Assembly: GCA_900541395.1 (NCBI GenBank)
Contig: UQJT01000001.1
Location: forward strand, 62,001-126,000
Direction: 5' to 3'
DNA: 64,000 bases
DNA from: an uncultured Desulfovibrio sp.
GTDB lineage: Bacteria; Desulfobacterota; Desulfovibrionia; Desulfovibrionales; Desulfovibrionaceae
Shown here: positions 1-16,551 of the stretch, one piece after another
Layout of the letters: every line of letters starts with the position of its first letter
Position numbering within the stretch: the first letter of the stretch is position 1
Program-made: the position numbers and the translations under genes
Notes under the pieces: generated by a model
The model's input: the letters and a program-made list of their open reading frames with translations, nothing else
The model's database searches: none
Told to the model about the DNA's origin: nothing

Positions 1-1
1 C

Positions 2-505
2 ATGGGCGAGCTGGACAAAGCCGAGGACTATTACACCAAAGCCGCCGCCAACAGCGAGGAGCAGGCCGATCCCTACATGGGCCTGGCCACCATCGCCATG
101 CAGCGCGGCGACATGGCGGGAGCGCTGACCCACTACAGCAAGGCCGCCACCATTCAGGAAAGCGACAAGGCCCTGGCCGGTCTGGGTCTGGTACACATGA
201 ACCAGGGCGAGCATGCCCGGGCCTTCGATCTGTTCGGCCGCGCCCTGACCCTCAATCCGGCCAACGCCGTGGCCCTGGGCTGCATCGTGCGCGAAGGCTA
301 CGAACAACAGCGGGTGGCGGATGTCGTTCCCTTCCTGCGCGCCAGCCTGGAGGCCACTCAGGACGAAAACACCCGAATCACCCTGGCGGGGTGCCTGCTC
401 TTTCTGGGCGATAAAGAAGAAGCGCGGCGGCATCTGAGCGAGGTGCTGGACGCCGACCCCGACAATACGAGCGCGCGCGAACTGTACGATCACATCGCGG
501 CCTGA
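2..505 (+). CDS. TPR-repeat protein, 3' part
   Basis: This is the C-terminal part of a tetratricopeptide-repeat protein; the gene very probably begins before the window. The visible 167 residues form about four TPR-type helix pairs, with recognisable repeat cores such as DPYMGLATIAMQRGDMAGAL and ALAGLGLVHMNQGEHARAF, and the familiar DPDN/LNPAN turns. TPR arrays are scaffolds for protein-protein contacts, so no enzymatic activity is implied and the partner is unknown. The ATG at position 2 lies inside a repeat and is unlikely to be the true start. A strong terminator follows about 115 bases after the stop, so this is the last gene of its transcript. Confidence 0.8.
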   Translation: MGELDKAEDYYTKAAANSEEQADPYMGLATIAMQRGDMAGALTHYSKAATIQESDKALAGLGLVHMNQGEHARAFDLFGRALTLNPANAVALGCIVREGYEQQRVADVVPFLRASLEATQDENTRITLAGCLLFLGDKEEARRHLSEVLDADPDNTSARELYDHIAA

Positions 506-621
506 CGCCGATCTTGTTTGCTGCGCCGCCGCGGGGACAGTCGGACGCGTTCACGCGCCGGACGCCCCGCCGGTTGAAACTTTCTTTCGACCGAGCGGCG
601 TCTCCATACTCCCCTCCCCAT

Positions 622-669
622 GATTTTTCGGCTCCGCAGTTGGCGCTCGGGGCCGAAAAATCTTTTTTT
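622..669 (+). terminator. Rho-independent terminator after the TPR gene
   Basis: A perfect 11-base-pair stem (GATTTTTCGGC at 622-632 with GCCGAAAAATC at 652-662) is followed directly by seven T residues on the plus strand. It ends the transcript of the TPR gene. The minus-strand tyrA gene stops about 90 bases further on. Confidence 0.85.
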
Positions 670-760
670 ACGCGGGTCCGCTTCCGCGGCAAAAGACAGC
701 CCGCGTCCCGCACGGGCCGGAGGCGGTCTTCACGTCGACGAAAGCGCGCGCTTCCGAGGC

Positions 761-1513
761 TTACCCGTCGCGTTCCTCGAACCAGCGTCCCGCCAGAGCC
801 GCCAGCATGTCCACATCGCCGCCCGCCGCCAGGTTGAGGTAGGAGCGGTATTCGCGCACCACATCCTGACTCATGGGGTTGGTCTCGAAAATGCCGGTGA
901 ACAGGGCGGCGTCCGACGTCAGCATGGAGCGGGCCGCCTCGGTCCGTCGCTGGAGCGAGGGCGTCAGAAAGGGCAGAACGTCGTTCCGTTGCGAAAGCAT
1001 GGCGAAATACGCCACGCTGGTGATGAAGTTGAGTCCCTGCACCACGGCCATAGCCCGGTCGTGGACTTCGGGCGTGCTGCGGAACGTGGTGCAGCCCATT
1101 CCCTCAAACACTTCTTCCACGGCGCGCACGGCGGCCTCGTCCGTCCCTTCGTCGGGCGTGACGCACACCGCGTTGTAATCCGGACGGGGTTTGGGACCGA
1201 ACAGAGGATGGGTGCCCACCACCGGCCCCGCGTAAGCCTTGCGCATGGCCCGCATGGGCAGCATCTTGACCGAGGCGATGTCCGCCAGCACGGCTCCCGT
1301 CTCCAAGTGGGGCGCCACCAGATGCGCCACGTCGCCCAGAACGGCGGCGGGCACGCACAGCAACGCCACGTCGGCTCCGGCGCAGGCCGCCGCCAGCACG
1401 TCGGGCGTCAGGGGCAGGTCCGCGCCGCGCGCCGTCCGACCGGCGGCTTCCAGTCTTTCCATAAGCATGGCGCCCATCCGGCCCCGGCTGCCGATGACGG
1501 CAGTCACGCTCAT
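761..1513 (-). CDS. tyrA: prephenate dehydrogenase family protein (TyrA)
   Basis: A 250-residue protein of the prephenate/arogenate dehydrogenase family, which oxidatively decarboxylates prephenate on the way to tyrosine. The N-terminal nucleotide-binding motif reads VIGSRGRMG. Further on are the family blocks DIASVKMLPMRAM, GTHPLFGPKP and HDRAMAVVQGLNF, which hold the conserved substrate-site His residues. The start at MSVTAVIG is chosen because it overlaps the aroA stop by four bases (ATGA), a typical translational-coupling junction; longer in-frame extensions run into aroA and are Arg-rich. The first glycine motif is GSRGRMG rather than the usual GGxGxMG, a mild variant also seen in related bacteria. 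Confidence 0.85.
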   Translation of the reverse strand: MSVTAVIGSRGRMGAMLMERLEAAGRTARGADLPLTPDVLAAACAGADVALLCVPAAVLGDVAHLVAPHLETGAVLADIASVKMLPMRAMRKAYAGPVVGTHPLFGPKPRPDYNAVCVTPDEGTDEAAVRAVEEVFEGMGCTTFRSTPEVHDRAMAVVQGLNFITSVAYFAMLSQRNDVLPFLTPSLQRRTEAARSMLTSDAALFTGIFETNPMSQDVVREYRSYLNLAAGGDVDMLAALAGRWFEERDG

Positions 1514-2910
1514 GCCTCGCCCCCTCGGCGTTCCGCCGCGCGGTCGCGTCCCGCGCGCAGCGCGGCCCATGTCGCCCAGAAGGCGGGGAACGACTTGTCC
1601 ACCGCCTCGGGATGATCCAGGCGCACGTCCGCGCCCCGGCATTCCAGCAGGGTCAGGCTCATGGCCATACGATGATCGCCCCACGCGGACAGTTCCAGAA
1701 CCCGGCCGTTCAAGCGGAAGTCCGAGCCCCGCCCGTGGACGATCAGACCGTCGTCCCGTTCGTCCACGGTCACACCGGCCTTGGCCAGCTCGCGGGCGGG
1801 CGCGGCGATGCGGTCGCTCTCCTTGATGCGCAGATGAGCCACGCCCCTGATGCGGGTGTCTCCCTCGGCGGCGGCGGCCAACACGGCCACCGTGGGCACC
1901 AGATCGGGACAGGAGCTCATGTCCACATCCACGCCGCGCAATGTCGAGGGGCGCGCCGTCACCCGCCGCACGCGCTCCACGCCGGGTTCGACTTCCACGT
2001 CGGCCCCCATGCTCCGCACAATATCCAACAAAGCGCGATCGCCCTGCAGCGTGTCCGGCCGCAGTCCGGACACGGCCACCGGCCGTTCACCCAGGATGCC
2101 CGCCGCCAGCAGGTAGGACGCGCCCGACCAGTCGCCTTCCACCGTATAACGGCCCGGTCGCCAGGTCGAAGGCCGCACCCGGAAGCGCACGCCTCCGGGG
2201 CGCGCCGCTTTGACGGAATGCCAGTCCACGGCCCTCCACGGGGCGTCGGGCCCGGCTTCGGGGGCGCGTTCGCTCACATCGAAACGAATGCCGAAATCAC
2301 GCATGGTTTGCAGCGTCAGCCCCACGTAAGGCCAGGACACCACCTGCCGTCCCGTAATTTCGATGGTCAGAGGAGCCCGTGCCTGAGGCGCGGCCAACAG
2401 CAGACCGGAAAGATACTGGCTGGATTCGTCCAGACCGATGCCCACCGTGCCGCCGTTCAGCCCTGAAGCCTCCAGCACGCAGGGCGGATAGCCCTCGCGC
2501 TCCTCAAACCGGAAGGAAGCTCCCAGTTCGGTCAGCGGGCCGGTCAAACCGCCCAGAGGACGGCGGTGCATGCGCGGCGCGCCGTGGATACGGAAACGTC
2601 CCCGCCCCGAGGCCAGCAACGCCGTCAGCAGTCGACAGGTGGTGCCCGACTCGTGCACGTCGCAGGATACAGGTTCGACACCGGGGCCCGCGCCCGTGAG
2701 AGCGCCCCCCACCCCCCGCACCCGGTACGCGCCCGGCCCCAAGGGCTCGAACACCGCTCCGGCCGCGCTCAACACGGCCCGCGTGCGCTCGGGGTCTTTG
2801 CTTTCCAACACGCCTTCCACCACCGACTCGCCCCCGGCCAGGGCCGCGCCGATCAACACTCTGTGCGACACCGACTTGGACGGTGGAGCTTCCACAAGGA
2901 CAGGTTCCAT
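1510..2910 (-). CDS. aroA: 3-phosphoshikimate 1-carboxyvinyltransferase (EPSP synthase)
   Basis: AroA joins shikimate-3-phosphate and phosphoenolpyruvate in the sixth step of the shikimate pathway. The protein has 466 residues, slightly longer than the usual 430-440. It opens with the substrate-binding motif PPSKSVSHR (Lys12), has an ESGTTCRLL block near residue 87 where most relatives have NSGTTMRLL, and ends with the LSAWGDHRMAMSL motif. These show the two-domain EPSP synthase fold. It is transcribed with tyrA, which begins within its stop codon. The first base of the start is at 2910. Sequence of the glyphosate-site region was not analysed further. Confidence 0.93.
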   Translation of the reverse strand: MEPVLVEAPPSKSVSHRVLIGAALAGGESVVEGVLESKDPERTRAVLSAAGAVFEPLGPGAYRVRGVGGALTGAGPGVEPVSCDVHESGTTCRLLTALLASGRGRFRIHGAPRMHRRPLGGLTGPLTELGASFRFEEREGYPPCVLEASGLNGGTVGIGLDESSQYLSGLLLAAPQARAPLTIEITGRQVVSWPYVGLTLQTMRDFGIRFDVSERAPEAGPDAPWRAVDWHSVKAARPGGVRFRVRPSTWRPGRYTVEGDWSGASYLLAAGILGERPVAVSGLRPDTLQGDRALLDIVRSMGADVEVEPGVERVRRVTARPSTLRGVDVDMSSCPDLVPTVAVLAAAAEGDTRIRGVAHLRIKESDRIAAPARELAKAGVTVDERDDGLIVHGRGSDFRLNGRVLELSAWGDHRMAMSLTLLECRGADVRLDHPEAVDKSFPAFWATWAALRAGRDRAAERRGGEA

Positions 2911-2970
2911 AACATATTCCTCAAGGGGGAGGGCGTCGCTCCAGACTCGCTACGCTCGCTGCTCCGCAGG

Positions 2971-4389
2971 TCAAATGAAGAACAACCAGGTAATCACGGC
3001 GAAGAGCGGGCAGAGAATGCCCACCGACCATGCCATATAGCCGAAGAAGCTGGGCATCTTGACCCCCTGCTCCATAGCGATGGACCGTACCATGAAGTTG
3101 GGCGCGTTGCCGATGTAGGTGATGGCGCCCATAAACACCGCACCGGCCGAAATGGCGGCCAGGGTTTCGCCCTCGTTCATCAGCACCTGGGCGTCGCCGC
3201 CCGCGGTGTTGAAGAACACCAGATAGGTGGGGGCGTTGTCCAGGAAGGACGAAAGCGCGCCCGTCAGCCAGAAGAACATGGCGTTGTTGGGCGTGCCGTC
3301 GGCGTTGGTCACCGCGTGCACCACGCCGGCCAACGCGCCCTGATCTCCCGCCTTGAGGATGGCGATGGCCGGGATCATGCTCAGGAAGATGCCGATGAAC
3401 AGCTTGGCCACTTCCAAAATGGGTTCCCAAGTGAAATCGTTGCGCTTGCGGCATTCCTTATCGGTGAGCGTCCACGACGCGGCGGCAATAAGGATGTACA
3501 CCAGATCGCGCACCACATTCTGCATTTCCATGGGGACGCCCAGGATGTGGAACGTGGGGCCGGTCCAGGCGCCGGAAATCAAAGTGTTGGCGATGACGCA
3601 GGCCAGCAGCAGGAAGTTGACGCCGCCTTCGATACCCAGTTTTTCACCCTTGCCGGGCGTCGCCCCGGGCTGGGTGGGACGACCTTCCTTATTGTACAGC
3701 ACCGTATCCACAATAAAGTAGATAATAAGCAGCGCGGCCGACAACAGGCTGGTTTTAAGCAGCAGATGAACCGTGGTCCAGAAGAAGCTCACGCCCTTGA
3801 GGAAGCCCAGGAACAGGGGAGGATCGCCCAGGGGAGTGAGGGAACCGCCGATGTTGGCCACCAGAAAAATGAAGAACACCACCTGATGCACGCGGTAACG
3901 GCGATGGCTGTTGGCGCGCAGCAAGGGACGGATAAGCAGCATGGCCGCGCCCGTGGTGCCCATCCAACTGGCCAGCACGGTGCCGATGAGCAGGATACCC
4001 GTGTTGACGGCGGGCGTGCCCACCAGAGAGCCCTTCAGGCGTATGCCCCCGGCCACGGTGAACAGAGCCAGCAAGAGCAGGATAAAGGGCAGATATTCGA
4101 GCAGCAGGGAATCCGCCGCCAGGAAAACGGCCAGCCCGCCACCGTAGACCAGCCAGCAGGGCACCAGAAAGGCCAGTCCCCAGAACAGAGCCACTTTGCC
4201 GTAATGGTGGTGCCAGAAGTGGGGCACGACAATGGGGCCCAATGCGATGGAGAGCAACATGCAGACAAAGGGAACGACCCAGATCACGGACAGATCCGCC
4301 GGTAGGGAGGGATGATCCGCAGCCAGGCACAGAGCCGGGGTCAGGAGCAAGGCCAGGAGGGACGGCGCAAGGATTCGCAATTTCGGCAT
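2971..4389 (-). CDS. Na+/H+ antiporter of the ion-transporter (NhaD/ArsB/citrate-like) superfamily
   Basis: A 472-residue polytopic membrane protein with about a dozen hydrophobic segments and a hydrophobic, signal-like N-terminus. Segments such as NIGGSLTPLGDPPLFLGF and SSFLDNAPTYLVFF are the paired re-entrant signatures (GG.LTPxGDPP and DNxPT) of the NhaD/ArsB/citrate transporter superfamily. Relatives in sulfate reducers are annotated as sodium:proton antiporters; the transported ion here is inferred. The start is fixed by an AAAGGAG ribosome site ten bases upstream. A longer in-frame opening up to 4593 has no such site and lacks hydrophobic character. The gene diverges from thiD. Confidence 0.8.
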   Translation of the reverse strand: MPKLRILAPSLLALLLTPALCLAADHPSLPADLSVIWVVPFVCMLLSIALGPIVVPHFWHHHYGKVALFWGLAFLVPCWLVYGGGLAVFLAADSLLLEYLPFILLLLALFTVAGGIRLKGSLVGTPAVNTGILLIGTVLASWMGTTGAAMLLIRPLLRANSHRRYRVHQVVFFIFLVANIGGSLTPLGDPPLFLGFLKGVSFFWTTVHLLLKTSLLSAALLIIYFIVDTVLYNKEGRPTQPGATPGKGEKLGIEGGVNFLLLACVIANTLISGAWTGPTFHILGVPMEMQNVVRDLVYILIAAASWTLTDKECRKRNDFTWEPILEVAKLFIGIFLSMIPAIAILKAGDQGALAGVVHAVTNADGTPNNAMFFWLTGALSSFLDNAPTYLVFFNTAGGDAQVLMNEGETLAAISAGAVFMGAITYIGNAPNFMVRSIAMEQGVKMPSFFGYMAWSVGILCPLFAVITWLFFI

Positions 4390-4631
4390 GCCACTCAACT
4401 CCTTTGAAGGGGAAAAAAGGTATGGTTCGGCATACCACGAAAGTTCGACCATCGGCAAGAAAAACCGAAGCTTGAGACAGGAAGGACAAGCCCCCTCCCC
4501 CACGCCGCCGGACGGCGACCGGAGCGAAACAGGCCGGAACGGGGCGTTTCCTCGACGCGTCTCCCCTTGACGAACGGCGCCGGTACGGGGCATGGGAGGA
4601 AAAATCGCTCTTTTTTCCGCCAGGAGGTCCC

Positions 4632-5435
4632 ATGCAGTATCCGCCCAACATCCTGACCGTCGCCGGGTCCGATTCCGGCGGAGGCGCGGGCATTCAGGCC
4701 GATCTGAAAACCATCACCATGCTCGGGGCATACGGCATGAGCGTCATTACCGCCCTTACCGCCCAAAACGGCTTGGGGGTGACGGGCATCCACGCCCCGG
4801 ACGCGTCCTTTGTGACCTTGCAACTGCAAACCGTGCTGGCGGGCTTTCCCGTCCACGCCGCGAAAACCGGCATGTTGTTTTCCTCCGCCATCATCGGAGC
4901 GGTGGCCGACGGCCTGGCGGACCGAAGTTTTCCCCTGGTGGTGGACCCGGTATGCGTGAGTCAGAGCGGCCACCGCCTGTTGGAGGAGGACGCCGTGGAC
5001 GCGTTGAAGGAACGCATCCTGCCTCTGGCCGATCTGCTCACGCCCAACCGGCCCGAAGCCGAACTTCTGGCGGGCATGTCCATAAACTCCGACGCCGACG
5101 TGGCCGAGGCGGGCCGCCGCCTGCTGGCCCTGGGGGCCAAAGCCGTGCTGATCAAGGGCGGCCACTTCGAGAGCGCGCCCATTCTGGTCACGGACTGGCT
5201 GATCACTCCGGACCGCGATCCCGATCCCCTGCGCCAGCCGCACGTGAACACGCCGAACAACCACGGCACGGGCTGCACTCTGTCCGCGGCCGTCGCCACC
5301 TGGCTGGGCTTCGGCATGCCGTTGCGGGTGGCCGTGACCAAGGCCCAGGAATATCTGAACCAGGGTTTGCGCCACGCCTACGCGCCGGGCGAGGGGGCGG
5401 GCCCGCCGCGTCACACTTTCGTTCTCCGCTCGTGA
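4632..5435 (+). CDS. thiD: hydroxymethylpyrimidine/phosphomethylpyrimidine kinase
   Basis: ThiD phosphorylates the pyrimidine half of thiamine twice (HMP to HMP-P to HMP-PP). The 267-residue protein has the ribokinase-like signatures of the family: GSDSGGGAGIQADLKT near the N-terminus (substrate binding) and NNHGTGCTLSAA near residue 215 (ATP/anion hole with the catalytic Asn-His-Gly-Thr-Gly-Cys). The length is typical. A strong AGGAGGT ribosome site lies directly before the ATG. No thiamine (THI-box) riboswitch was found in the 240-base leader, and no other thiamine gene is adjacent, so it stands alone. Confidence 0.93.
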   Translation: MQYPPNILTVAGSDSGGGAGIQADLKTITMLGAYGMSVITALTAQNGLGVTGIHAPDASFVTLQLQTVLAGFPVHAAKTGMLFSSAIIGAVADGLADRSFPLVVDPVCVSQSGHRLLEEDAVDALKERILPLADLLTPNRPEAELLAGMSINSDADVAEAGRRLLALGAKAVLIKGGHFESAPILVTDWLITPDRDPDPLRQPHVNTPNNHGTGCTLSAAVATWLGFGMPLRVAVTKAQEYLNQGLRHAYAPGEGAGPPRHTFVLRS

Positions 5436-5583
5436 CCATGCTCGGCGGACCAGGCCGCCACGCGCCTTCGCGGTTCGCTCAAAGCTCGCCGCTCCGTCGG
5501 TTGAGGGCGGTGGTCGGCACGGATACGCCTTTGCGTCGTCCCCGTCAGATTACGACGAGGTTTTCTGCGAAAGAAGGCGAAAT

Positions 5584-6216
5584 TTAGCGCAGTTCCTCAT
5601 CAGGCACGGCGTCGGGCAGGTGGGCCAGCATTTCCTCGCAATCGCGGTACCGGCGCATAACGGACAGGGCGCAGGGCAGGGGTGCGGCGTAGATGGTGGG
5701 GTAATCCCGTTCTCCCAGGTCCGGGCGCGGGGTGAAGGCCAGTTGTTCCCGCAGGGGATCGTCCGGAAAGAATTCCGCCTTGCAGCCGGTGTCGTTGCCC
5801 CGGGCGTCGAGCCGGGTCCAGAGTCCGGGACCGGACAGGTACACCGCATTGAGGGCGTGCAGGACAAAACCCTCTGCCGGGTTGCCGTTGCGGGCCACGC
5901 GCTGGTAGCAAAAACCCGTGGGGATGCGCACGCAGCGCAGAAGCGCGGCCATCAACATGGCCTTGGCGTGGCAGGTGCCCTCGCCGTAACGCAGAACGTC
6001 CGTGGCCCGACGTATGACGCGGTTGCTGCCGATATCCACGGAATGGGCGATGAAATCCCGAACAAAGACAAAAGCCGTCTGTATCACGGCTTCCTCGCCT
6101 CGACAGACGCTGAACAGCCCTTTGGCCTTGCCCCGGATCAGCGCCGCGCCGTAATCCACTTCGGGGGATTCCGCCAGATAATCCGCCAGGTCGCCGCTTT
6201 GCATACTATATTGCAT
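5584..6216 (-). CDS. transglutaminase-like domain protein
   Basis: A 210-residue soluble protein with the Cys-His-Asp arrangement of transglutaminase/papain-like proteins: GEGTCHAKAMLMAALLR (Cys near residue 81), VLHALNAVYL (His near 119) and TRLDARGN (Asp). The region between the Cys and His matches the arrangement used by bacterial members that act as proteases or peptide-bond hydrolases. No signal peptide is evident, so it is probably cytoplasmic. The substrate is unknown. It is followed by the P1 peptidase gene upstream on the same strand, separated by 64 bases, so the two could be co-transcribed. Confidence 0.75.
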   Translation of the reverse strand: MQYSMQSGDLADYLAESPEVDYGAALIRGKAKGLFSVCRGEEAVIQTAFVFVRDFIAHSVDIGSNRVIRRATDVLRYGEGTCHAKAMLMAALLRCVRIPTGFCYQRVARNGNPAEGFVLHALNAVYLSGPGLWTRLDARGNDTGCKAEFFPDDPLREQLAFTPRPDLGERDYPTIYAAPLPCALSVMRRYRDCEEMLAHLPDAVPDEELR

Positions 6217-6280
6217 ATATCCTCCTCAACTGCGGCGGCCCGCCGGGACGCGCCACGGCGGCCGCAAAGCCGAAATATGT

Positions 6281-7225
6281 TCATCCCCCGGTCCGACGCA
6301 CGGCGTCGGCCACGGCCCTGCCCAAAGCTTCGGCCGCCAGGGCGCCCGCCAGATCGTCCGAGACGGCGGGGCCGTCCCGGCGGGACAGCGCGAACACCAC
6401 GTCGCCGTCAAAGGTCAGATGCGCGGGTCGTATGGCCCGCCCCAGGCCCACCGAGGCCATGCGCGCCATACGGTTGGCCCCCGTCTTGTCCAAGCGGGCG
6501 TTGGTCGCCACCACGGCCAGGACGGTATTGCCCTCCGGCACGGGCCGTTCCAACAGCCGCCAGACCGTGTCGACGGGCAAACGCCGCCCTTCCCGGTCCA
6601 CGCCCCCGGCCAGCCAGGCTCCGCTGTCCGGGTCGTGCACCGCGCCCAGACAGTTGACCACGGCCAGGGCCGCCACCACCACATCTCCGACCCGCAGGCC
6701 CCAGGACCCCACGCCGCCCGGCGACGTTCCGTCCTGTCCGCCCTCCGGATGCGGCAACAAGGAAAACAAACGGCCGCAGCGCGCGCCGCAGCCGGCACCC
6801 ACCCGGCCCCGCTGCACAGGCCCGGCGTGAGCCGCGCGGGCGGCGGCGTAGCCCATGTCCGCGTCCGGCAGTTCCCCCGGCCGCTCGTTGCGGTCCAGAT
6901 CGTAAATAATGGCCCCCGGCACCAGGGGGATACGGGCGTCCGGCATGACCAGCCCCGCGCCCTGTTCGCGCAGATAACGCGCCACGCCGTCGGCCCCGGC
7001 CAATCCGAAGGCGCTGCCGCCGCCCAGATACAGGCCATGCACCTCGCCCACCGTGTTTTCGGTCCGCATGAGCTCGAGGTCGCGCGTACCCGGCGCAAAG
7101 CCCGGCAGATGCGCGCCGGGTGTAAAACCTTCGGGGCAGAGCACGGCCGTGCACCCCGTGCCCCGGCCTCCGGCATGCCCCACCAGCACGCCCGGCACGG
7201 CGGTCAGCGTCAGACTTTCGGCCAT
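6281..7225 (-). CDS. P1 family peptidase (DmpA/BapA-like aminopeptidase)
   Basis: A 314-residue member of the P1 family of N-terminal-nucleophile hydrolases, which self-cleave and then act as aminopeptidases or amidases. Typical blocks are VPGVLVGHAGG at the start, GLYLGGGSAFGLAGADGV, VPGAIIYDL, GAGCGARCGRLF and the GGVGSWGLRVGD segment around the expected autocleavage site, followed by VVAALAVVN and VATNARLDK. The start at 7225 is preceded by GGAGGAAT; the longer reading frame upstream overlaps the next gene and is not supported. Substrate is not predictable from sequence. Confidence 0.82.
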   Translation of the reverse strand: MAESLTLTAVPGVLVGHAGGRGTGCTAVLCPEGFTPGAHLPGFAPGTRDLELMRTENTVGEVHGLYLGGGSAFGLAGADGVARYLREQGAGLVMPDARIPLVPGAIIYDLDRNERPGELPDADMGYAAARAAHAGPVQRGRVGAGCGARCGRLFSLLPHPEGGQDGTSPGGVGSWGLRVGDVVVAALAVVNCLGAVHDPDSGAWLAGGVDREGRRLPVDTVWRLLERPVPEGNTVLAVVATNARLDKTGANRMARMASVGLGRAIRPAHLTFDGDVVFALSRRDGPAVSDDLAGALAAEALGRAVADAVRRTGG

Positions 7226-7256
7226 AAGGATTCCTCCGAGTTCGCGCAGCGGCCGC

Positions 7257-8909
7257 TCACGGTTTGAGGATGCGACCGACGCGGGGCATGGGCAGCGGGG
7301 AATGGGCGCGCACATAGGCGGCGAACACGTCGGCGTCCACCGGATCGGGCGCTTCCACCACCGTCCCGCGTTTCAACATATCGTAGCCGTCGCCGCCCCG
7401 GGCCAAAAAATCGAGAAGCACCACCTTGTAGCGGCCCGCCGGATCGAGGGGCCGGACGCCACCCTGTTCATCCACCAGTTCTGCCGCCAACAGGCGATGT
7501 CCCTCGGGCAAAGCCGGATCGAAACGGTAGCGCAGCCCCGCGGGCTGCAACAACCGCGCGCCCTTGCCATGCTCCGCGTCCGCGCTGAATTCCAGAGCGG
7601 CCAGCAGGTCCGCTCCGCTGTATTCCCGAATGACCAGGGTATTCCCGAAAGGCATGACCGCCAACACATCCCCCCGGGTAATGGGACCGGCGGCGAGCGG
7701 CGCGCGCAGGCTGCCGCCGTTGCTCAAAGCGGCCACCGCGCCGTAGGGCCGCCCGTAGTCCAGCATGGAATCGGTCTGAAGCATGCCCGCCAGACAATCG
7801 CCGCTGCGGCAGGCGTCCATGCCGTCGGCATAGCGCAAATGGTGTTCGCCGAGCACCGTGGCGCGGAAGCGTTCCAAAGAGCGGGCATAGGGCTCCAGCC
7901 GCGCCGTGATGTCGGGCGCGGGGGGGATGGAAGGCTCCAGCCGTTCGGCCGCGCCGCCCCAGGCAACCGGTATCCCCTTGCCGTCAAAACGAACGTGCAG
8001 ATCGCCCAGATATTCCGTACCGTATTTGGCCGTGACCACCAGCACCGGGTGTCCCTCGGGCGAACGCTCCACCAACGGGTACGGGCCTTCCGCGCCGGGC
8101 GCGGCCAGGTCGGGCGCGGCCGCGGACGCCAGCCAACTGTGGGAATGCCCGCCCACAATGACGTCCACCCCTTCCACTGTCCTGGCCAGGTCGCGATCCG
8201 CGGACAGGCCCAGATGGGTGACAGCCACAATGATATCCACGCCCTGTCCGCCCAGTTCGGCCACGGCCGCGCGCAGGGCTTCGGCGCTGTCGGTAAAACG
8301 GGTATCCGCGCACGGCGCGGCCAGCTTGGCCGTGTCGGGATTGGCCAGCCCCACCAGGCCCACCTTGCGCCCGGCCACGTTGCGCACCTCATAGGGGCGC
8401 ACACCCTCCAATCCCCGCAGGGGACAGGTTGGACCGGGGGCGAGATTGGCGGCCAGCACAGGCGTATCCAGGGCGCGGATATAATCGGCCAGAACGTCGC
8501 AGCCCTCATCGAACTCGTGGTTGCCCAGGGTTACGGCGTCGTATCCCATCAGGCCGTCCAATTCGGCCAGCATGGGCCACTTGTTGACGGTATAAAACAG
8601 GGTGCCTTGAAAACGATCGCCGGCGTCCAGCACCAACACATTATCCCGGCCCGCCTTCAATCGCCGCAGCTCCGCGGCCAGACGCCCCATGCCGCCGGCG
8701 CACGGCTCGGCCGGGTCGAGACAGGCGGCGCCGTACGTATCCATGCCCGCCATGTAGGAATGGGTATCGTTGACGTGCACTATTTCCAGCTCAAACGGCA
8801 TTTCCGGCGGCGCGGACGTCAGGCGCAGCCCGCACCCGCTCAGCCCGCAACAAGCGACGAATACGCTCAGCAGCAAAGCGGCCCCTGTTCCGAATGAACG
8901 ATGCTTCAC
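7257..8909 (-). CDS. 5'-nucleotidase/UshA-type metallophosphoesterase lipoprotein
   Basis: A two-domain metallophosphatase. The N-terminal calcineurin-like domain carries the metal-ligand blocks VHVNDTHSY, DAGDRFQGT, LGNHEFDEG, THLGLSADRDLA and GGHSHSW. The C-terminal 5'-nucleotidase domain carries SNGGSLRAPL and FGNTLVI. Enzymes of this type hydrolyse nucleotides or sugar phosphates outside the cytoplasm. A hydrophobic leader ends in the lipobox LSGC (Cys26), so it is likely a lipoprotein. I chose a GTG start at 8909 because a strong AGGGGAGGAAAG ribosome site sits just before it and it gives a normal basic-plus-hydrophobic leader; the ATG ten codons upstream (8939) lacks a site. The P1 peptidase gene follows 31 bases later. 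Confidence 0.88.
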   Translation of the reverse strand: MKHRSFGTGAALLLSVFVACCGLSGCGLRLTSAPPEMPFELEIVHVNDTHSYMAGMDTYGAACLDPAEPCAGGMGRLAAELRRLKAGRDNVLVLDAGDRFQGTLFYTVNKWPMLAELDGLMGYDAVTLGNHEFDEGCDVLADYIRALDTPVLAANLAPGPTCPLRGLEGVRPYEVRNVAGRKVGLVGLANPDTAKLAAPCADTRFTDSAEALRAAVAELGGQGVDIIVAVTHLGLSADRDLARTVEGVDVIVGGHSHSWLASAAAPDLAAPGAEGPYPLVERSPEGHPVLVVTAKYGTEYLGDLHVRFDGKGIPVAWGGAAERLEPSIPPAPDITARLEPYARSLERFRATVLGEHHLRYADGMDACRSGDCLAGMLQTDSMLDYGRPYGAVAALSNGGSLRAPLAAGPITRGDVLAVMPFGNTLVIREYSGADLLAALEFSADAEHGKGARLLQPAGLRYRFDPALPEGHRLLAAELVDEQGGVRPLDPAGRYKVVLLDFLARGGDGYDMLKRGTVVEAPDPVDADVFAAYVRAHSPLPMPRVGRILKP

Positions 8910-9165
8910 CGGCTTTCCTCCCCTTGAGACTTCCACCATGCCAAAACTCGGAGCCTTCGTCGACCCCGTTTTTTGAAGAAAGGCACGAGTATTATTTCAC
9001 TATCCCAGGGGACACGTTTCTTCTTTCCGGCCCGGAACCCCGCTTCTCGCCGCAATCATGCCTCCAACACGGTAAATAGTGGCGCGGAAGGCCGTCGCGC
9101 CCCTATGCTGGTCCAAAACGTCGCCCGCACGGGCGACGCATGTCTCCAACGCAAAGGACCTTGCC

Positions 9166-10218
9166 ATGAATAAAGAAATGAGCCTTCTGTTCCGGGCCAT
9201 TCCCCTGATGATGGGCGCCATCTGCCTGGCCTACGGGCTTTACATCTGGAACCGGGGCCCCACGCCCGACAATGTGGTGTCCGGTCATGTCGTCACCTTT
9301 CTGACGGCCATCTGCATCGCCCTGTTCAGCACTGCCGCCACCATCATTCGTCAGCTCACCGACACCTACGGTCCCGGCTACCGAGCGGCTCTGCCCGTGC
9401 TCGGCTATGCGGCGGGCATTATCGCCGTTATCTGCGGCCTGACCTTTGTGGCGCGTATTCCCCATGCCGACGGCTTTGTGGCCGGGCATGTGGTGTTCGG
9501 CATAGGTCTCATCACCTGCTGCGTGGCCACGGTGGCCGCTTCATCCACCAAATTCGTTCTTATTCCCCGAAATTCCAAGGCCGCGCCCGATGCCAAACCC
9601 GACAACGCCTTCAATGAAGGCACGGCCACCATTCTGCTGGCCGTGCCCATCATCTGCACCGTGGTCGGCCTGGCCTGGGGCTTCGCCCTGCTGACCAAAC
9701 AACATTCAGGCTCGGAATATATGGTGGCCGGGCATGTGCTGGTGGGGTTGTCGCTGGTGTGCGGCAGCCTCATCGCCCTGGTGGCCAGCGTCCTGCGTCA
9801 GATTCAGAACACCTACGGCGACCGTGAACACAGATCCTGGCCCCTGTTGGTGGCGGTTCTCGGCGGCATCAACATTTTATGGGGGTTGACCGTCCTGGTA
9901 TCCGGCGACGATCCGGCCCGCCTCGCCCCCGGTTGGGTGCTCATCGGCCTGGGCATTGTGTGCTGGAGCATTCTCAGCAAAGTGTTGTTGCTTGCCCTGG
10001 TGTGGCGGCGCAGCTTCCCGCTGGCCGACCGCATTCCCCTTATTCCGGTCATGACCGCCCTGTCCTGCCTGTTCATTGCCGGTTTTCTGTTCGAAGCCGG
10101 TCTGGACGAACCCGCCTACTACGTGCCCGCGCGGATCATGGTCGGCCTGGGGGCCGTGTGCTTCACCCTGTTCTCCATCGTGTCCATCCTGGAAAGCGGC
10201 ACCTCGGGCGGAGACTAA
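9166..10218 (+). CDS. YhiM-like integral membrane protein (DUF2776)
   Basis: A 350-residue membrane protein with about ten hydrophobic segments. Length and sequence match the DUF2776 family typified by E. coli YhiM, as I remember it: both end in MVGLGAVCFTLFSIVSILE or nearly so, and share LALVWRR and ARLAPG. YhiM has been linked to acid survival in E. coli; the molecular function is unknown. Within the protein a two-helix unit repeats about five times, each with a (A/S/P)GHVxxGLxxxC-like block (for example SGHVVTFLTAIC, AGHVVFGIGLITC, AGHVLVGLSLVC, PGWVLIGLGIVC). The start is the ATG after CAAAGGACC. An inverted repeat CGTCGCCCG-CA-CGGGCGACG lies 28-47 bases upstream (9119-9138). Confidence 0.85.
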   Translation: MNKEMSLLFRAIPLMMGAICLAYGLYIWNRGPTPDNVVSGHVVTFLTAICIALFSTAATIIRQLTDTYGPGYRAALPVLGYAAGIIAVICGLTFVARIPHADGFVAGHVVFGIGLITCCVATVAASSTKFVLIPRNSKAAPDAKPDNAFNEGTATILLAVPIICTVVGLAWGFALLTKQHSGSEYMVAGHVLVGLSLVCGSLIALVASVLRQIQNTYGDREHRSWPLLVAVLGGINILWGLTVLVSGDDPARLAPGWVLIGLGIVCWSILSKVLLLALVWRRSFPLADRIPLIPVMTALSCLFIAGFLFEAGLDEPAYYVPARIMVGLGAVCFTLFSIVSILESGTSGGD

Positions 10219-10286
10219 TACTTTTCTATTGAAAAAAAGCGGTTACGGAAGGGATATCCCTTCTCCGGCTTCACTTCCTCCCCCTC

Positions 10287-10326
10287 CACGCGGACGCGCG
10301 CTACCCGCGCGTCCGCGTGTTTTTTT
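10287..10326 (+). terminator. Rho-independent terminator of the YhiM-like gene
   Basis: A perfect 14-base-pair stem (CACGCGGACGCGCG with CGCGCGTCCGCGTG, loop CTACC) is followed by seven T residues on the plus strand. It isolates the yhiM-like gene from the regulator downstream. Confidence 0.92.
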
Positions 10327-10393
10327 CCGCCTCTCGGCCGGAATATCTACGCTCAGCCCCCAACCCGGCTCTCGGAACTTCCTTTCCGTTTTC

Positions 10394-10407
10394 TCACCAA
10401 TGGGTGA
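10394..10407. promoter_or_regulatory. palindromic operator O1 (TCACC-N4-GGTGA)
   Basis: The sequence TCACCAATGGGTGA is a perfect TCACC/GGTGA inverted repeat ending exactly 35 bases before the ATG of the first XRE regulator. The same motif occurs twice more, before the second regulator. Its repetition at equal spacing suggests an autoregulatory binding site for one or both XRE proteins; binding itself is inferred. Confidence 0.7.
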
Positions 10408-10442
10408 ATGTTTTTGCCTTTCGCAACGGTTAGAGTGATATC

Positions 10443-10721
10443 ATGAAGAAAGTGGCAACTATTTCAGATGTTTTTCCCTGGGTTTTAAAGCAATACCGAC
10501 ATCAGGCCGGGCTTACGCAAGAGCAAGTCAGCGAACGTGTGGGCGTCAGCCCGTCTTTTGTGGGAATGCTGGAAACCGGGTTGAAAAAGCCCAATCTGGC
10601 CATGCTGTTCAAGTTGTCGCAAGCCCTGGGCGTCCCCGCCAGCACTATGGTCACCACGCTGGAAGAGGAATGGCGCAGACGCGCCGCGCAAGCTCAACCG
10701 ATGGAAAACAAGCGACACTAA
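10443..10721 (+). CDS. XRE-family helix-turn-helix regulator, copy 1
   Basis: A 92-residue DNA-binding protein that is essentially one Cro/C1-type helix-turn-helix domain. The HTH lies at about residues 22-50 (AGLTQEQVSERVGVSPSF followed by the recognition-helix neighbour GMLETGLKKPNL). There is no extra effector domain; a short charged tail follows. It resembles small regulators such as phage Cro-like and restriction-modification controller proteins, but no restriction genes are near. It is about 55% identical (44 of 80 positions, ungapped) to the second XRE protein at 11261, so they arose by duplication. Operator O1 lies 35 bases before the start. The stop overlaps that of the convergent gene by four bases. 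Confidence 0.88.
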   Translation: MKKVATISDVFPWVLKQYRHQAGLTQEQVSERVGVSPSFVGMLETGLKKPNLAMLFKLSQALGVPASTMVTTLEEEWRRRAAQAQPMENKRH

Positions 10722-11176
10722 TCGCGAGAGCCCTTGTTGAGCAGTTCGTTCACATAATCCAGATATTTTCTGACACGTTCGTCAATAACCATAGGACTGG
10801 AAAAAAACAGAGCTTTTTCCATTGCCACCGTTAATTTATCTTTGTCGGCCTGGCTCAACTTTTTGATAAAAAATCCATATCTTGCGTTAAAACACAATAT
10901 TTCTTCTTTTTGAGCATTGTCGAAACGATGTTTTTCTATCTTCTCATATAAGTTAAATACCATCCGCAAAACCCAATCAACAGGGATGGATAAATTTTTT
11001 ATATAGCTTAATATATCGCCAAACGGCAATCCAAGATAGGAAGCCAGTGATTTCAAAGATTTTGTTTGCGATAAAAATAAAAAACGTTTGAGAGTCTTAT
11101 AGAATTCATCTTTATCATAAAATATATACAGTTTATCGCTCTCCTTAAAACAATATCTCTCTTCTCCCGGCGTCAT
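10718..11176 (-). CDS. AT-rich gene, possible phage-repressor-like DNA-binding protein
   Basis: A 152-residue protein I do not recognise firmly. Residues about 35-75 (SLASYLGLPFGDILSYIKN then IPVDWVLRMVFNLYEK) resemble the HTH domain of the bacteriophage CI repressor family, where an HTH is followed by IPxxWV/L. The remainder is helical and charged, without a recognised peptidase or effector domain. The coding sequence is strikingly AT-rich compared with every neighbour, suggesting recent transfer. The ATG at 11176 is preferred over one at 11215 because of the AGGGAGG site before it; the longer start would run through operators O2 and O3. It is convergent with XRE copy 1 and divergent from copy 2. 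Confidence 0.6.
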   Translation of the reverse strand: MTPGEERYCFKESDKLYIFYDKDEFYKTLKRFLFLSQTKSLKSLASYLGLPFGDILSYIKNLSIPVDWVLRMVFNLYEKIEKHRFDNAQKEEILCFNARYGFFIKKLSQADKDKLTVAMEKALFFSSPMVIDERVRKYLDYVNELLNKGSRD

Positions 11177-11192
11177 CTGGACCCTCCCTGTT

Positions 11193-11225
11193 TCACCCCT
11201 GGGTGATTTTCTCACCTATAGGTGA
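11193..11225. promoter_or_regulatory. twin palindromic operators O2 and O3
   Basis: Two perfect TCACC-N4-GGTGA palindromes sit 19 bases apart centre to centre: TCACCCCTGGGTGA (11193-11206) and TCACCTATAGGTGA (11212-11225). They lie between the divergent starts of the AT-rich gene and XRE copy 2. O3 ends exactly 35 bases before the copy 2 ATG, the same distance as O1 before copy 1. The paired layout could give cooperative binding and control both directions. Confidence 0.72.
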
Positions 11226-11260
11226 ACCTTGTCCGATACACAAGCAGCTATTCTTATTTA

Positions 11261-11503
11261 ATGGAAAAACTATATATAATATCGTGTCACTTTTCCTATG
11301 TTCTGAAGCGATTCCGACGAGAGGCAGGGCTGACGCAGGTTCAACTCAGCGAACGGGCGGGCGTCAGTCCATCGTTCATCGGCATGTTGGAAAGCGGGCG
11401 GAAAAAGCCCAGTCTGGACATGCTGTGCCAATTGGCCGAAGCTTTGGGCATTCGTGCCAGCGACCTGTTGGTCGCCATGGAAAAGGAACGTGAACTGCGT
11501 TGA
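11261..11503 (+). CDS. XRE-family helix-turn-helix regulator, copy 2
   Basis: An 80-residue single-domain HTH regulator (AGLTQVQLSERAGVSPSF, then GMLESGRKKPSL). The start was set at ATG 11261 because from there it aligns without gaps, residue for residue, with XRE copy 1 (44 identities in 80). A GTG further upstream at 11222 would lie inside operator O3. It differs from copy 1 in the first 12 residues and at the C-terminus, where copy 1 has 12 extra residues. Role inferred: repressor or activator of itself and its neighbours through the TCACC-N4-GGTGA sites. No conventional SD sequence is obvious before the ATG. Confidence 0.87.
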   Translation: MEKLYIISCHFSYVLKRFRREAGLTQVQLSERAGVSPSFIGMLESGRKKPSLDMLCQLAEALGIRASDLLVAMEKERELR

Positions 11504-11561
11504 ACGCGGACGGCTTTTCGCTGTTTCGCGCCGGAAACGGCCTCAACAATCAGGATCGTCC

Positions 11562-12401
11562 ATGTCGAATCTTTCCTTCTCCGGCCGGTCCCCGGCCCGT
11601 TGGCCCGATCCCGCCGCCGTCCGTCGACCTTTGATCATCGCCCACCGGGGGGCGCGGCGGCTCGCTCCGGAAAACACGCTGGCCGCCGCCCGTCTGGCGC
11701 GCGAAATGGGCGCGGATGCCTGGGAATTGGACGTCAACCTGACGGCCGACGGCCGCCTGGCGCTTGTCCACGACGATACCCTGGCCCGCACTACCGACGT
11801 CGCCGCCCGTCCAGAACTGGCCCACCTTGCGCCCTGGCGGGTGTGCGACCTCACCCTGTCCCAAATCCGGAGCCTGCACGCCGGCGCCGATATGCGGCCG
11901 CCGCGGGCCGAACCCGTGCCCATGCTGGAAGAGGCCTTGACGCTGACCCGCGATCTGAACTGGCTGGTCAACGTGGAAATCAAGGATCACGCCGGGCTGC
12001 GCGGGGACCATAGCGTCGTGCCCGCCACGCTGGCACTGGTCCGACGGCTGGACATGCTGCCCCGGGTGTTGTTTTCGTCATTCCGGCACGACTACCTGCG
12101 CCGACTACGCGCGCTGGAGCCGTCGGCCCTGCTCGGCGCGTTGGTGGAGGCCCGCCCTCCGCGCGGTCCGGCCGCGTTGTGCGCGGACCTGGACGCGGCC
12201 TGGTACCATCCGCTGCACACCCTGCTTATGGAAGCGGACCTGACGGAACTGCGTCGGACGGGCAAGGGAACGCTGCCCTGGACGGTCAACGAAGCCGCCG
12301 ACATGAACGCCCTGCTGACCGCAGGCGTCACCGGTCTGATCACCGACGATCCCGCCGCCGGGCGAACCGCCGTGACCCGCCTGTCCTCCCCGCGCGCCTG
12401 A
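11562..12401 (+). CDS. glycerophosphodiester phosphodiesterase
   Basis: A 279-residue TIM-barrel enzyme that hydrolyses glycerophosphodiesters to glycerol-3-phosphate and an alcohol. All family residues are visible: [17 protein letters not shown] (the catalytic His-Arg and Glu), [21 protein letters not shown] (metal-binding Glu-Leu-Asp and the second catalytic His) and NVEIKD (Glu and Lys). There is no signal peptide, so it acts in the cytoplasm, probably in phospholipid head-group recycling. The ATG at 11562 follows a weak AGGA. It starts 58 bases after the XRE copy 2 stop. Confidence 0.9.
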
Positions 12402-12477
12402 CCCCGACTCTTTCTTGCCAAGCCGGGCCCGCCGAAGCTATACAGATTTTTTGCCACCCCCAACCAAGGCAAAAGCC

Positions 12478-13113
12478 ATGCTGGCCATTCTCGACTATAA
12501 GGCGGGCAACCAGACAAGCGTGCGCCGCGCTCTGCAATCCTTGGGCATCCCGGCCGAGATCACGGCCGAGCCCGCCGCCCTCGCGGCTGCCGACGGCGTC
12601 ATCTTTCCGGGCGTGGGCGCGGCCGGGCAGGCCATGCGGCACTTGCGCGACACGGGTCTGGACGATACGTTGCGCGCTCTGGTGGCGGGCGGCAAGCCGC
12701 TGCTCGGCGTCTGCCTGGGCTGTCAAATTCTGCTGGAACACAGCGAGGAAAACGACACCGCGACCCTGGGCATCCTGCCCGGCGTCTGCCGCCGCTTCCG
12801 GCCCGAGTGGCAGGACGGCGGCCGCCCCATCCGCATCCCCCACATGGGCTGGAACAGCCTGATCGTCCGACGGCCTTCGCCCCTGCTGGAAGGCATTGCC
12901 CCCGACGCCCGATTCTACTTCGTGCACAGCTACTACCCCGAACCTCAGCCCGATCTGCTCATAGCCGAAACCATTTACGGCGCAACCTTCGCTTCGCTGT
13001 ACGGCCGCCCCGGCCTGTGGGCCGCCCAGTTCCATCCCGAAAAAAGCGGCGAACCGGGCCTGCGCCTGCTGGCCAACTTCCACGCCTGGTGCCGGGAGGC
13101 CCGCCATGCCTGA
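12478..13113 (+). CDS. hisH: imidazole glycerol phosphate synthase, glutaminase subunit
   Basis: HisH supplies ammonia from glutamine to HisF for ring closure in histidine synthesis. The 211-residue class I amidotransferase shows the nucleophile elbow LGVCLGCQ (Cys79) and the His186/Glu188 partners in QFHPEKSG. The N-terminus [11 protein letters not shown] is typical of the family, and it fixes the start at 12478; upstream in-frame codons are not HisH-like. The last eight bases overlap hisF, so the two subunits are likely translated together to form the heterodimer. Confidence 0.95.
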
Positions 13114-13918
13114 CTCCTCTTTCTCCCCCCGGGCCGTCGGCCGTCTGAGCAAGCGCCTCATCCCCTGCCTGGACGTGCGCGACGGTCGCCTGACCAAGGG
13201 CGTGCGCTTTCAGGGCAACGAGGACATCGGAGACCCGGTGGAAACGGCCCGCCGCTACTACGAGCAAGGCGCGGACGAAATCGTGTTTTACGACATCACG
13301 GCCTCGCACGAGGCGCGGGGTATTTTCCTCGATGTGGTGGAACGGGTGGCCTCGGCCATCTTCATCCCGTTTTCCGTGGGCGGCGGCATCGCCAGCGTGG
13401 AGGACATGCGGGCCGTGCTGCTGGCCGGGGCGGAAAAGGTGTCGCTCAACTCGGCGGCGGTCAAACGTCCGGAACTCATCGCCGACGGCGCGGCGGCCTT
13501 CGGCTCGCAGGCCGTGGTGGTGGGTATGGACGTGCGCCGGGTGCCCGCCTCCCCCGCCCAACCTTCGGGCTATGAAATCGTCATCCACGGCGGCCGCAAG
13601 CCCACCGGGCTGGACGCCCTGGCCTGGGCGCGGCGTTGCGAGGAACTGGGCGCGGGCGAACTGTGCGTCAATTCCATCGACGCCGACGGCACCCTGGACG
13701 GCTATGAACTGACCCTCACCCGTCTCATCGCCGACGCCGTGACCATTCCGGTTATCGCCTCGGGCGGCGCGGGCGCGCCGCAACATCTGACGGACGCGGT
13801 GACCACGGGCGGAGCCTCGGCCGCGCTGGTGGCCTCCATCGTGCACTACGGCGCCTACTCCATCCCCGAACTCAAGACCTTCATGCGCCGGGCGGGCGTG
13901 CCCGTCCGCATGGTATAA
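13106..13918 (+). CDS. hisF: imidazole glycerol phosphate synthase, cyclase subunit
   Basis: HisF is the (beta-alpha)8-barrel cyclase that makes imidazole glycerol phosphate and AICAR from PRFAR and ammonia. The 270-residue protein has the catalytic Asp in [12 protein letters not shown] (Asp23) and the second, by alignment, in VVVGMDVRR (Asp142). The phosphate-binding loops FSVGGGIAS and [11 protein letters not shown] are also present. The N-terminal 15 residues precede the usual beginning of the barrel. It overlaps hisH and is followed by a terminator, so the operon contains only hisH-hisF; the other his genes must be elsewhere. Confidence 0.95.
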
Positions 13919-14038
13919 AACGCCCCCGACCCGCGAACCTCAAAACCAACCGCAGTACCGGCGGGCCCAAAGACAGCGGCTCAAAAAAGGCGGGGCTTCG
14001 TATTTCCCACGGATAAAAAGCTTGACGGGGCGAGGTAT

Positions 14039-14079
14039 GGGGAGGGGGCTTTTTCAAAAGCCTCCCTCCCCGTCTTTTT
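14039..14079 (+). terminator. terminator between convergent hisF and lon
   Basis: An inverted repeat with arms GGGGAGGGGGCTTTT and AAAAGCCTCCCTCCCC (one unpaired base) is followed by GTCTTTTTC on the plus strand. It ends the his transcript right before the lon stop codon. The stem could also help end lon transcripts, although the minus strand lacks a clean T-run. Confidence 0.8.
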
Positions 14080-16551
14080 CTACTGCGCGGGGGCGGAAGG
14101 GGCGGCGTCCACGCCGCGGGGACGCTCCCGAAGGGAGACGAACAGAGACGGCGTATCGTCGCGCCGGGGAAAGATATCGGCGGGCGCGGCGTCCAAGGCC
14201 AGGGGCAGCACCTCGTCGACGTGGCGGACGAACACGATGTGCAAGGACTTGAGGATTTCCTCCGGCACTTCCTTGAGGTCTTTTTCATTGTCCGCGGGGA
14301 CGATGACGGTCTTGATGCCCGCGCGGCGGGCGGCGAGCAGCTTTTCGCGCAGGCCGCCGATGGGCAACACGCGGCCGCGCAGAGTGATTTCGCCGGTCAT
14401 GGCCACATCGTTGCGCACAGGGATGCCCAGCAGAGCCGAGGCCAGCGAGGTGGCCAGGGTGATCCCGGCCGAAGGGCCGTCTTTGGGCGTAGCTCCCTCG
14501 GGCACATGGACGTGGATGTCCACTTCCTTGTGGAAAGAGGGCTTGAGACCGAACAGGTCGGAGCGCGAACGCACATAGGAGAAGGCGGCCTGAGCCGATT
14601 CCTTCATGACGTCGCCGAGCTGGCCGGTGGTCGACACCTTGCCCGAACCGGGCATAAGAGCCGTTTCCACGTACAGGATTTCCCCGCCGCGATCGGTATA
14701 GGCCAGGCCGGTGACCACGCCCACCTGGGGGCCGTCTTCGCGTTCGCCGTAACGGTATTTTTTGACTCCAAGGAAGGTATGCAGGTTCTGGCGGGTGACG
14801 GTGACGCCTCCCGTCGCGCCCTTGGCGTCCACCATGCGCATGGCGGTCTTGCGGCACAGGGCGGCCAGTTCGCGCTCCAGACCGCGCACTCCGGCTTCGC
14901 GGGTGTAGGAGCGGATGACCTCCAGCAGGGCGTTGTCCGTAACGCGCAGATTGTCCGACTGCAGGCCGTGCAGTTCCCATTGTTTGGGCAGCAGAAAATC
15001 GCGGGCGATATGCGTTTTTTCGGTCTCCAGATAGCTGGAAAGCTGGAGTATCTCCATGCGGTCCAGCAGCGGGGCGGGTATCCCTTGAAGGCTGTTGGCC
15101 GTGGTGATGAAAAAGACCTGGGACAAATCGTAATCCATGTCCAGGTAGTGATCGTTGAAGGCGTAGTTCTGTTCCGGGTCCAGCACTTCCAGCAGGGCGG
15201 AGGAAGGATCGCCCCGGAAGTCGGCGGTCATTTTATCGATTTCATCCAGGCAGAACAAGGGGTTGTTGAATTTTGCCCGCTTGAGGGCCATGAGTATCTT
15301 GCCGGGCAGCGCGCCCACATAGGTGCGGCGGTGCCCCCGGATTTCCGCCTCGTCCCGCACGCCGCCCAGGGAAACGCGCACGAATTCGCGGCCCGTGGCC
15401 TTGGCCACGGATTTGGCCAGCGAGGTCTTGCCCACGCCGGGAGGCCCCACCAGGCAGAGGATGGGCCCCTTGAGGCGTCCGGCCAGCTTCTGCACGGCCA
15501 AATATTCGAGGATGCGCTCCTTGGGCTTTTCCAGACCGTAGTGAGCGCCGTCCAGCAGGGCTCGAGCTTCCTGAATGTCGACGTCGATTTCTTTCAGTTC
15601 GTTCCAAGGCAGGTCGAGAATCCAGTCGATGTAATTGCGGGCCACGCTGTATTCGGCCGACGAGGGAGGCATCTGACGCAGCTTGCGCACCTCGCGCAGG
15701 CCGCGTTCGCGCGCCTCTTCGGGCATATTCTTGGCCCGGAAGCGCTGTTCCAGTTCGGCGGCCTCGGCCTGGGGGTCGTCCTCGTGCCCCATTTCCTTGT
15801 GGATGGCCTTGATCTGCTCGTTCAGGTAGTATTCGCGCTGGTTGCGCTCCATCTGGGTTTTGACCCGGCTTTTGATGGTCTTTTCCAGAGAGGCCACGGC
15901 CAGTTCGCCGCTCAACAGTTCAAACACCTTTTCCAGCCGCGCGCCCGTGTCGAGCGTTTCCAGCACTTCCTGCTTGCGCAGATGATCGAGCTTGAGGTGG
16001 GGCATGACCGCGTCGGCCAGGCGGCCAGGCTCGCGCAGGCCCGCTATGGCGGCCAGATGTTCCTGGTTCATCTTCTTATTGACCCGGCCGAAATCCTCCA
16101 CGGCCTCATGGGTGGCGCGGATCAGGGCTTCCTGTTCGGGATTGGAGCTGCCCGCCTCATCCAGGCGCGTCACCTGAAGCAACGGAAACGGTCCGTCGCC
16201 GAACGCGCTGTGAGCGCTGTACGGCCTCCAGGCGGCACGATACATGCCTTCGAACAGCACCTTGATGCTGCCGTCGGGCAGGCGCAGCAACTGAAGGATT
16301 TTGCTCACCACCCCCACGGGAAACAGATCGTCCGGGCCGGGCTTTTCCACATCCGGCTCTTTCTGCGCCACCAAAAAAATCTGCTTGCCGTAATCGGCGA
16401 TGGAACTCTCAATGGCTTTGACCGACGCTTCCCGTCCCACAAACAACGGCATGATGGCGTGCGGAAACATCACCACCTCGCGCAGCGACATGATCGGCAA
16501 TTCCATCGGCGAATGTTCGTCCCCGGTCGGCGTCTTACGGAAAAGTCCCAT
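14080..16551 (-). CDS. lon: ATP-dependent protease Lon
   Basis: Lon degrades misfolded and regulatory proteins in the cytoplasm. The 823-residue protein has the N-terminal substrate domain, a coiled linker, the AAA+ module with Walker [10 protein letters not shown] (369-377) and Walker [11 protein letters not shown] (about 431-440), and the Lon protease domain. The catalytic dyad is visible as Ser694 in KDGPSAGIT and Lys737 in [12 protein letters not shown]. Length is typical of LonA. It lies downstream of clpP-clpX on the same strand, with a 208-base gap, so the three quality-control genes may share a stress response. Confidence 0.97.

Follow-up and report, generated by a model that had tools for sequence, protein, structure and literature searches.

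What kind of genetic circuit, if any, is formed by two small XRE-family regulator genes and the AT-rich gene that lies between them on a Desulfovibrio contig? In the window, by which we mean the whole 64-kb stretch of DNA that was analysed and to which all positions refer, the three genes form an island, set among ordinary housekeeping genes, whose sequence has the look of a small gene switch under its own control. The surrounding genes encode DUF2776, GDPD, a class-I glutamine amidotransferase (HisH by place), HisF, Lon, ClpX and ClpP. A terminator-like hairpin of 14 pairs (10287-10319) follows the upstream DUF2776 gene. The product of this gene (window 9079-10218) is a DUF2776 family membrane protein (509 bits), and among 14 control genomes the family was found only in E. 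coli.

The island is defined by an inverted repeat, TCACC-N4-GGTGA (Table 1). The three copies that the first-pass annotation had placed at 10394, 11193 and 11212 are exact and are the only ones in the 64-kb window, where 0.08 were expected from 100 dinucleotide shuffles, none of which contained three or more. A search that tolerated one mismatch recovered these three sites and none extra, although the bare count of three one-mismatch sites is not unusual (shuffle mean 1.74; at least three in 23 of 100 shuffles). Among the 119 perfect 5-N4-5 inverted repeats of the window, TCACC is the sole arm that occurs three times within 1 kb, and any such arm did so in one of 60 block-shuffled windows.

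Each of the three island genes has one of these sites in front. The distances from O1 to the XRE1 start codon and from O3 to that of XRE2 are, as claimed earlier, both 35 bases. O3 is in fact equidistant, with 35 bases also to the ATG of the middle gene on the opposite side. This may be a coincidence, since the middle gene has a Shine-Dalgarno sequence where the XRE genes have a conserved hexamer. Four of the 210 ATG ORFs in the window (at least 75 aa, overlapping and often unreal) are preceded by a perfect 5-N4-5 repeat whose centre is at -42, namely the three island genes and an ORF at 26359. Another inverted repeat, CGGAA-N6-TTCCG (window 10370-10388, centre some 62 bases upstream of the XRE1 ATG), holds at XRE1 the place that O2 has at XRE2; its sequence is unrelated to TCACC, and it is perhaps there by chance.

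Table 1. Genes, inverted repeats and proposed promoter elements of the island (window coordinates)
Feature	Position	Strand	Remarks
O1, TCACCAATGGGTGA	10394..10407	.	-49 to -36 from XRE1 ATG
TAGAGT, proposed -10 of XRE1	10431..10436	+	4/6 to TATAAT, 6 bases before ATG; inferred
XRE1	10443..10721	+	92 aa, single HTH_3 (PF01381, 58.7 bits, cut-off 23)
Middle gene	10718..11176	-	152 aa, AT-rich, no family assigned; GGGAGG Shine-Dalgarno before ATG
O2, TCACCCCTGGGTGA	11193..11206	.	-68 to -55 from XRE2 ATG; 16 bases before middle gene's ATG
O3, TCACCTATAGGTGA	11212..11225	.	Full palindrome; 35 bases to XRE2 ATG, 35 to middle gene's ATG
TATTCT, proposed -10 of XRE2	11249..11254	+	4/6 to TATAAT, 6 bases before ATG; inferred
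XRE2	11261..11503	+	80 aa, single HTH_3 (PF01381, 60.7 bits, cut-off 23)

The two XRE proteins are paralogues, 57% identical over 76 residues (about 55% in the first-pass annotation), and their recognition-helix regions are nearly alike (SPSF[VI]GMLE). Compared with the PDB, an XRE profile matched best the phage immunity repressor 8bny, and second the controller (C) protein C.BclI (2b5a). PADLOC control-protein models also match both proteins (E 3.9e-5 and 3.3e-8), but its HTH_VI model scores higher. XRE2 matches PF07022, the phage CI repressor HTH, below the cut-off. In phage lambda, CI contacts sigma through acidic residues of helix 2; such residues were set aside as a sign of activation, as they are common in the family.

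A search of a phage collection with XRE2 returned one relative (56.5% identical), encoded on L035 (MT838691.1), a 4974-base record from human faeces deposited under the name of a bacteriophage. Its genes for a MobA/MobL relaxase and a Rep_3 initiator make L035 plasmid-like, and it looks like a small mobilizable plasmid; the region had no match among plasmids. The sequence at one end of the record (1-4974) recurs at the other, as it would in a circular molecule. Like XRE2, the L035 gene is preceded by two related sites, TCTCCCGTGGGTAA and TCTCCCATAGGAGA, whose starts lie 18 bases apart and the second of which lies 35 bases before the ATG. Unlike the island, L035 has one XRE gene, its sites have the arm TCTCC and are each two mismatches away from TCACC-N4-GGTGA, and the middle gene has no match in the phage records. 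Two-mismatch sites number four in L035 versus 1.36 expected, a count reached in 9 of 200 shuffles, so that the evidence lies in the position of the sites rather than in their number. The 35-base layout is thus based on three genes in two contexts, the island and L035.

This recurrence bears on the idea that the XRE proteins bind elsewhere and that the sites serve an unlinked regulator or form RNA hairpins. O1 and O2 do pass a loose scan for terminator-like structures, with 11 such sites in the region versus 1.8 expected. Yet exact sites stand in the 64 kb solely before these genes, related ones precede the L035 gene at an equal distance, and Rfam gave a single match, with a score far short of the gathering threshold. 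We consider this explanation improbable.

What, then, could the fixed distance mean? All three XRE promoters carry a TAnnnT hexamer six bases before the ATG. By mononucleotide shuffling, the probability of this common offset is 2.5e-4, for a feature that was picked after inspection, and none of 113 window ATG ORFs of at least 150 aa, many of them not real genes, has the hexamer there. The 35 bases between site and ATG are otherwise only 37-46% identical among the three promoters. None of the tested Shine-Dalgarno patterns precedes XRE1, XRE2 or the L035 gene, and the middle gene has one; GAAAGG, immediately before the L035 ATG, could be a weak Shine-Dalgarno sequence. The hexamer, together with the absence of these patterns, suggests that the XRE mRNAs are leaderless. 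If TAnnnT is the -10 element, transcripts would start at the ATG, and the near site would span -49 to -36 with its centre at about -42, which is the position of an activator. The site from which lambda CI activates likewise has its centre near -42.

Other features of these promoters point away from such an arrangement. The -35 position is poor at XRE1 (ATGTTT, 2/6) and reads ACCTTG (0/6) at XRE2, the proposed hexamer pairs of the three XRE promoters are weak (6, 4 and 4 of 12), and a promoter scan found no sigma-70 site at XRE1 or XRE2. Pairs with higher scores and a start inside the gene exist, three for XRE2 (score 8) and one for XRE1 (score 9). Among the alternatives is TTCACC-19-TATAGG (score 8), which is built from O2 and O3 themselves, so that binding there would repress.

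The reading that we tentatively put first, although we would give it somewhat less than an even chance, is that the island is a small autogenous switch resembling C-protein circuits. XRE1 and XRE2 dimers would bind TCACC-N4-GGTGA, and thereby each other's sites. The leaderless XRE mRNAs, with their poor -35 elements, would be switched on when an HTH dimer on O1 or O3, centred at about -42, touches sigma. Dimers on O2 and O3 would at the same time silence the divergent middle gene by covering its start region. Occupancy of O2 and O3 would span this start region under activation or repression alike. The confinement of the three sites to the island favours the C-like reading, as do the distance and the hexamer, kept in three promoters despite the divergence of the bases between them, and the distribution of Shine-Dalgarno patterns between the XRE genes and the middle gene. 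The second place of C.BclI among the PDB matches also speaks for it, together with the description of C-protein transcripts, in passages of three papers, as leaderless and self-activated (PMC2997769, PMC4824078, PMC4041747).

The same comparison also weakens the C-like reading. In known C systems, activation comes from the distal site and repression from the proximal one (PMC4824078, PMC4041747); the reverse is proposed for O3, and XRE1 lacks a distal TCACC site. The weak hexamers, the empty sigma-70 scan, the higher-scoring alternative pairs including the one on O2 and O3, the possible Shine-Dalgarno sequence in L035, the repressor 8bny as best PDB match and the rank of HTH_VI above the control-protein models weaken it further. 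Plain negative autoregulation, in which the sites would serve each XRE only to repress its own promoter and the middle gene, never to activate, is therefore a real possibility and close in likelihood: the weak hexamers, the lack of a promoter in the scan, a promoter that TTCACC-19-TATAGG would place on O2 and O3, and a near site that represses in C systems all bring it near, and the match to 8bny agrees with it. Negative autoregulation, which many small XRE repressors show, is moreover the commonest behaviour in the family. A repressor site, however, need not keep exactly 35 bases to the ATG while the intervening bases diverge. Taken by itself, the geometry is about equally suggestive of self-activation and of a plain repressor switch.

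The C proteins C.PvuII, C.Esp1396I, C.Csp231I and C.BclI are described as small and HTH-only, as are XRE1 and XRE2 (92 and 80 aa, PF01381), and as encoded by leaderless genes that are each preceded by two inverted-repeat operators. XRE2 has O2 and O3 in this place, whereas XRE1 has only O1. In the Esp1396I system, a third site is described at the promoter of another gene, a likeness to the island. Unlike the C systems of restriction-modification loci, the island has no restriction or methylase gene among the ten neighbours scanned (1510 to 16551), its arm is TCACC instead of GACT/AGTC, and its nearer site is the one proposed to activate. The neighbouring Lon protein matches BrxL and three other AAA/Lon-type models. 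In the lambda CI/Cro switch, HTH dimers act on shared operators between divergent promoters. The island likewise has shared operators between divergent genes, but its XRE proteins (80-92 aa) lack the CI C-terminal domain, and its middle gene is not recognised as CI or Cro.

The middle gene stands apart in composition (GC 0.346 and GC3 0.373, versus a window GC of 0.644), in line with the AT-richness noted by the first-pass annotation. It also converges with XRE1, with which its ORF shares four bases (10718-10721), but it does not point at XRE2, as had been stated: it starts beside XRE2 and reads away, and is thus divergent from it. The CI-repressor-like segment attributed to it found no counterpart. 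PF07022 was absent from 3/3 homologues scanned at E up to 10, with filters that drop most weak matches, and neither a PHROG (E <= 0.1) nor a PDB sequence (E <= 10) was matched. An AlphaFold2 model is poor (mean pLDDT 51.8); its helices at 41-48 and 52-60 would be compatible with an HTH, and Foldseek returned no match for this poor model at E <= 0.001. IMG/VR contained no match. On the minus strand, TTGTGT-17-TATAGG, with its -10 inside O3, scores 7/12 as a promoter of the middle gene, and five others score 8.

The gene has two homologues, at 99% and 49% identity. It seems to diverge faster than the XRE genes, since environmental XRE relatives other than near-copies are 78-88% identical. Such rarity, AT-richness and divergence would fit a toxin, antirepressor or exclusion gene acting as effector in a module of mobile or addiction type that has decayed, with the XRE proteins as its antitoxin- or immunity-like keepers, and the XRE relative on plasmid-like L035 would fit as well. 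We regard this as improbable. No toxin, defence or phage family was matched by the middle gene in the profile libraries and PADLOC models searched, the gene and XRE2 are divergently oriented instead of forming one operon, and both XRE groups recur in other samples. A type II toxin-antitoxin pair is also unlike the island in that the XRE proteins score 44.5 and 52.9 bits against the Y4mF/HipB-like antitoxin model TIGR03070, below its curated cut-off of 71.65.

In a tree of 15 proteins, an XRE1 group (6 rows) separates from an XRE2 group (4 rows) on a branch with a support of 91/92, which is below the tool's mark for firm support, and 9 of 12 inner branches are unresolved. The rows comprise XRE1, XRE2, the L035 protein and 12 of 26 environmental XRE proteins, near-copies and distant ones being left out. 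The split suggests that the duplication is probably older than these environmental relatives. The earlier proposal of a duplicated and diverged switch thus retains its self-regulating pair, which fits the split and the shared site and distance, and loses the CI identity and the direction of the middle gene. Among the environmental proteins, equal 'longest contig' values alone suggest that P0003 and P0013 may lie on one contig of 2561 bases, and P0002 and P0007 on one of 4596.

The known role of C-protein circuits is to time restriction systems. A C-like pair on a chromosome, with no restriction gene close by and with operators that also serve a rare adjacent gene, would be a case of this promoter logic put to another use. 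With two paralogues that read identical sites, it would also allow a direct test of how a duplicated switch diverges. A bolder version, which we consider unlikely, is a controller-like switch freed from restriction-modification. In such a chromosomal switch, both paralogues would recognise a common operator, activate themselves and cross-regulate one another. A two-way double operator would let them keep a dedicated, rapidly evolving output gene down, so that the on or off state is inherited, and mobilizable plasmids of the gut would use an identical promoter arrangement.

How widespread is the arrangement? A scan of genome contigs for relatives gave 34 loci with identities of at most 50%, none of them titled Desulfovibrionaceae. 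Within 90 bases upstream of other XRE genes, with start codons chosen by rule, TCWCC-N4-GGWGA was found in 0/37 loci (24 of the 34 genome-contig loci, 2/17 and 1/3 IMG/VR loci, and 10 plasmid or phage regions); anywhere in these checked loci it occurs only in L025, twice. The exact site was absent from all 52 loci examined, and the island DNA matched neither phages nor plasmids. Alignments of the XRE proteins to IMG/VR yielded 17, 3 and 26 loci, all weak. The tandem-site pattern is present there in 11 stretches, with no XRE, as judged by eye, among the neighbouring ORFs printed. The full geometry occurs in 74 stretches, in 33 of which the ATG opens at least 25 codons; none of these 33 matches an XRE profile, and the geometry pattern alone is thus no predictor of an XRE gene. 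In the open-licence literature, none of four literal spellings of TCACC-N4-GGTGA was found anywhere in the text, nor was a title on this island. In the one Desulfovibrio paper that contains GGTGA, the site shown is a ModE site with an N14 spacer, a different motif (PMC545781). On the Burkholderia vietnamiensis plasmid pBVIE03 (L152, 1569-2219), two XRE genes, each encoding about 80 aa, likewise stand in tandem and are followed by a small convergent hypothetical gene.
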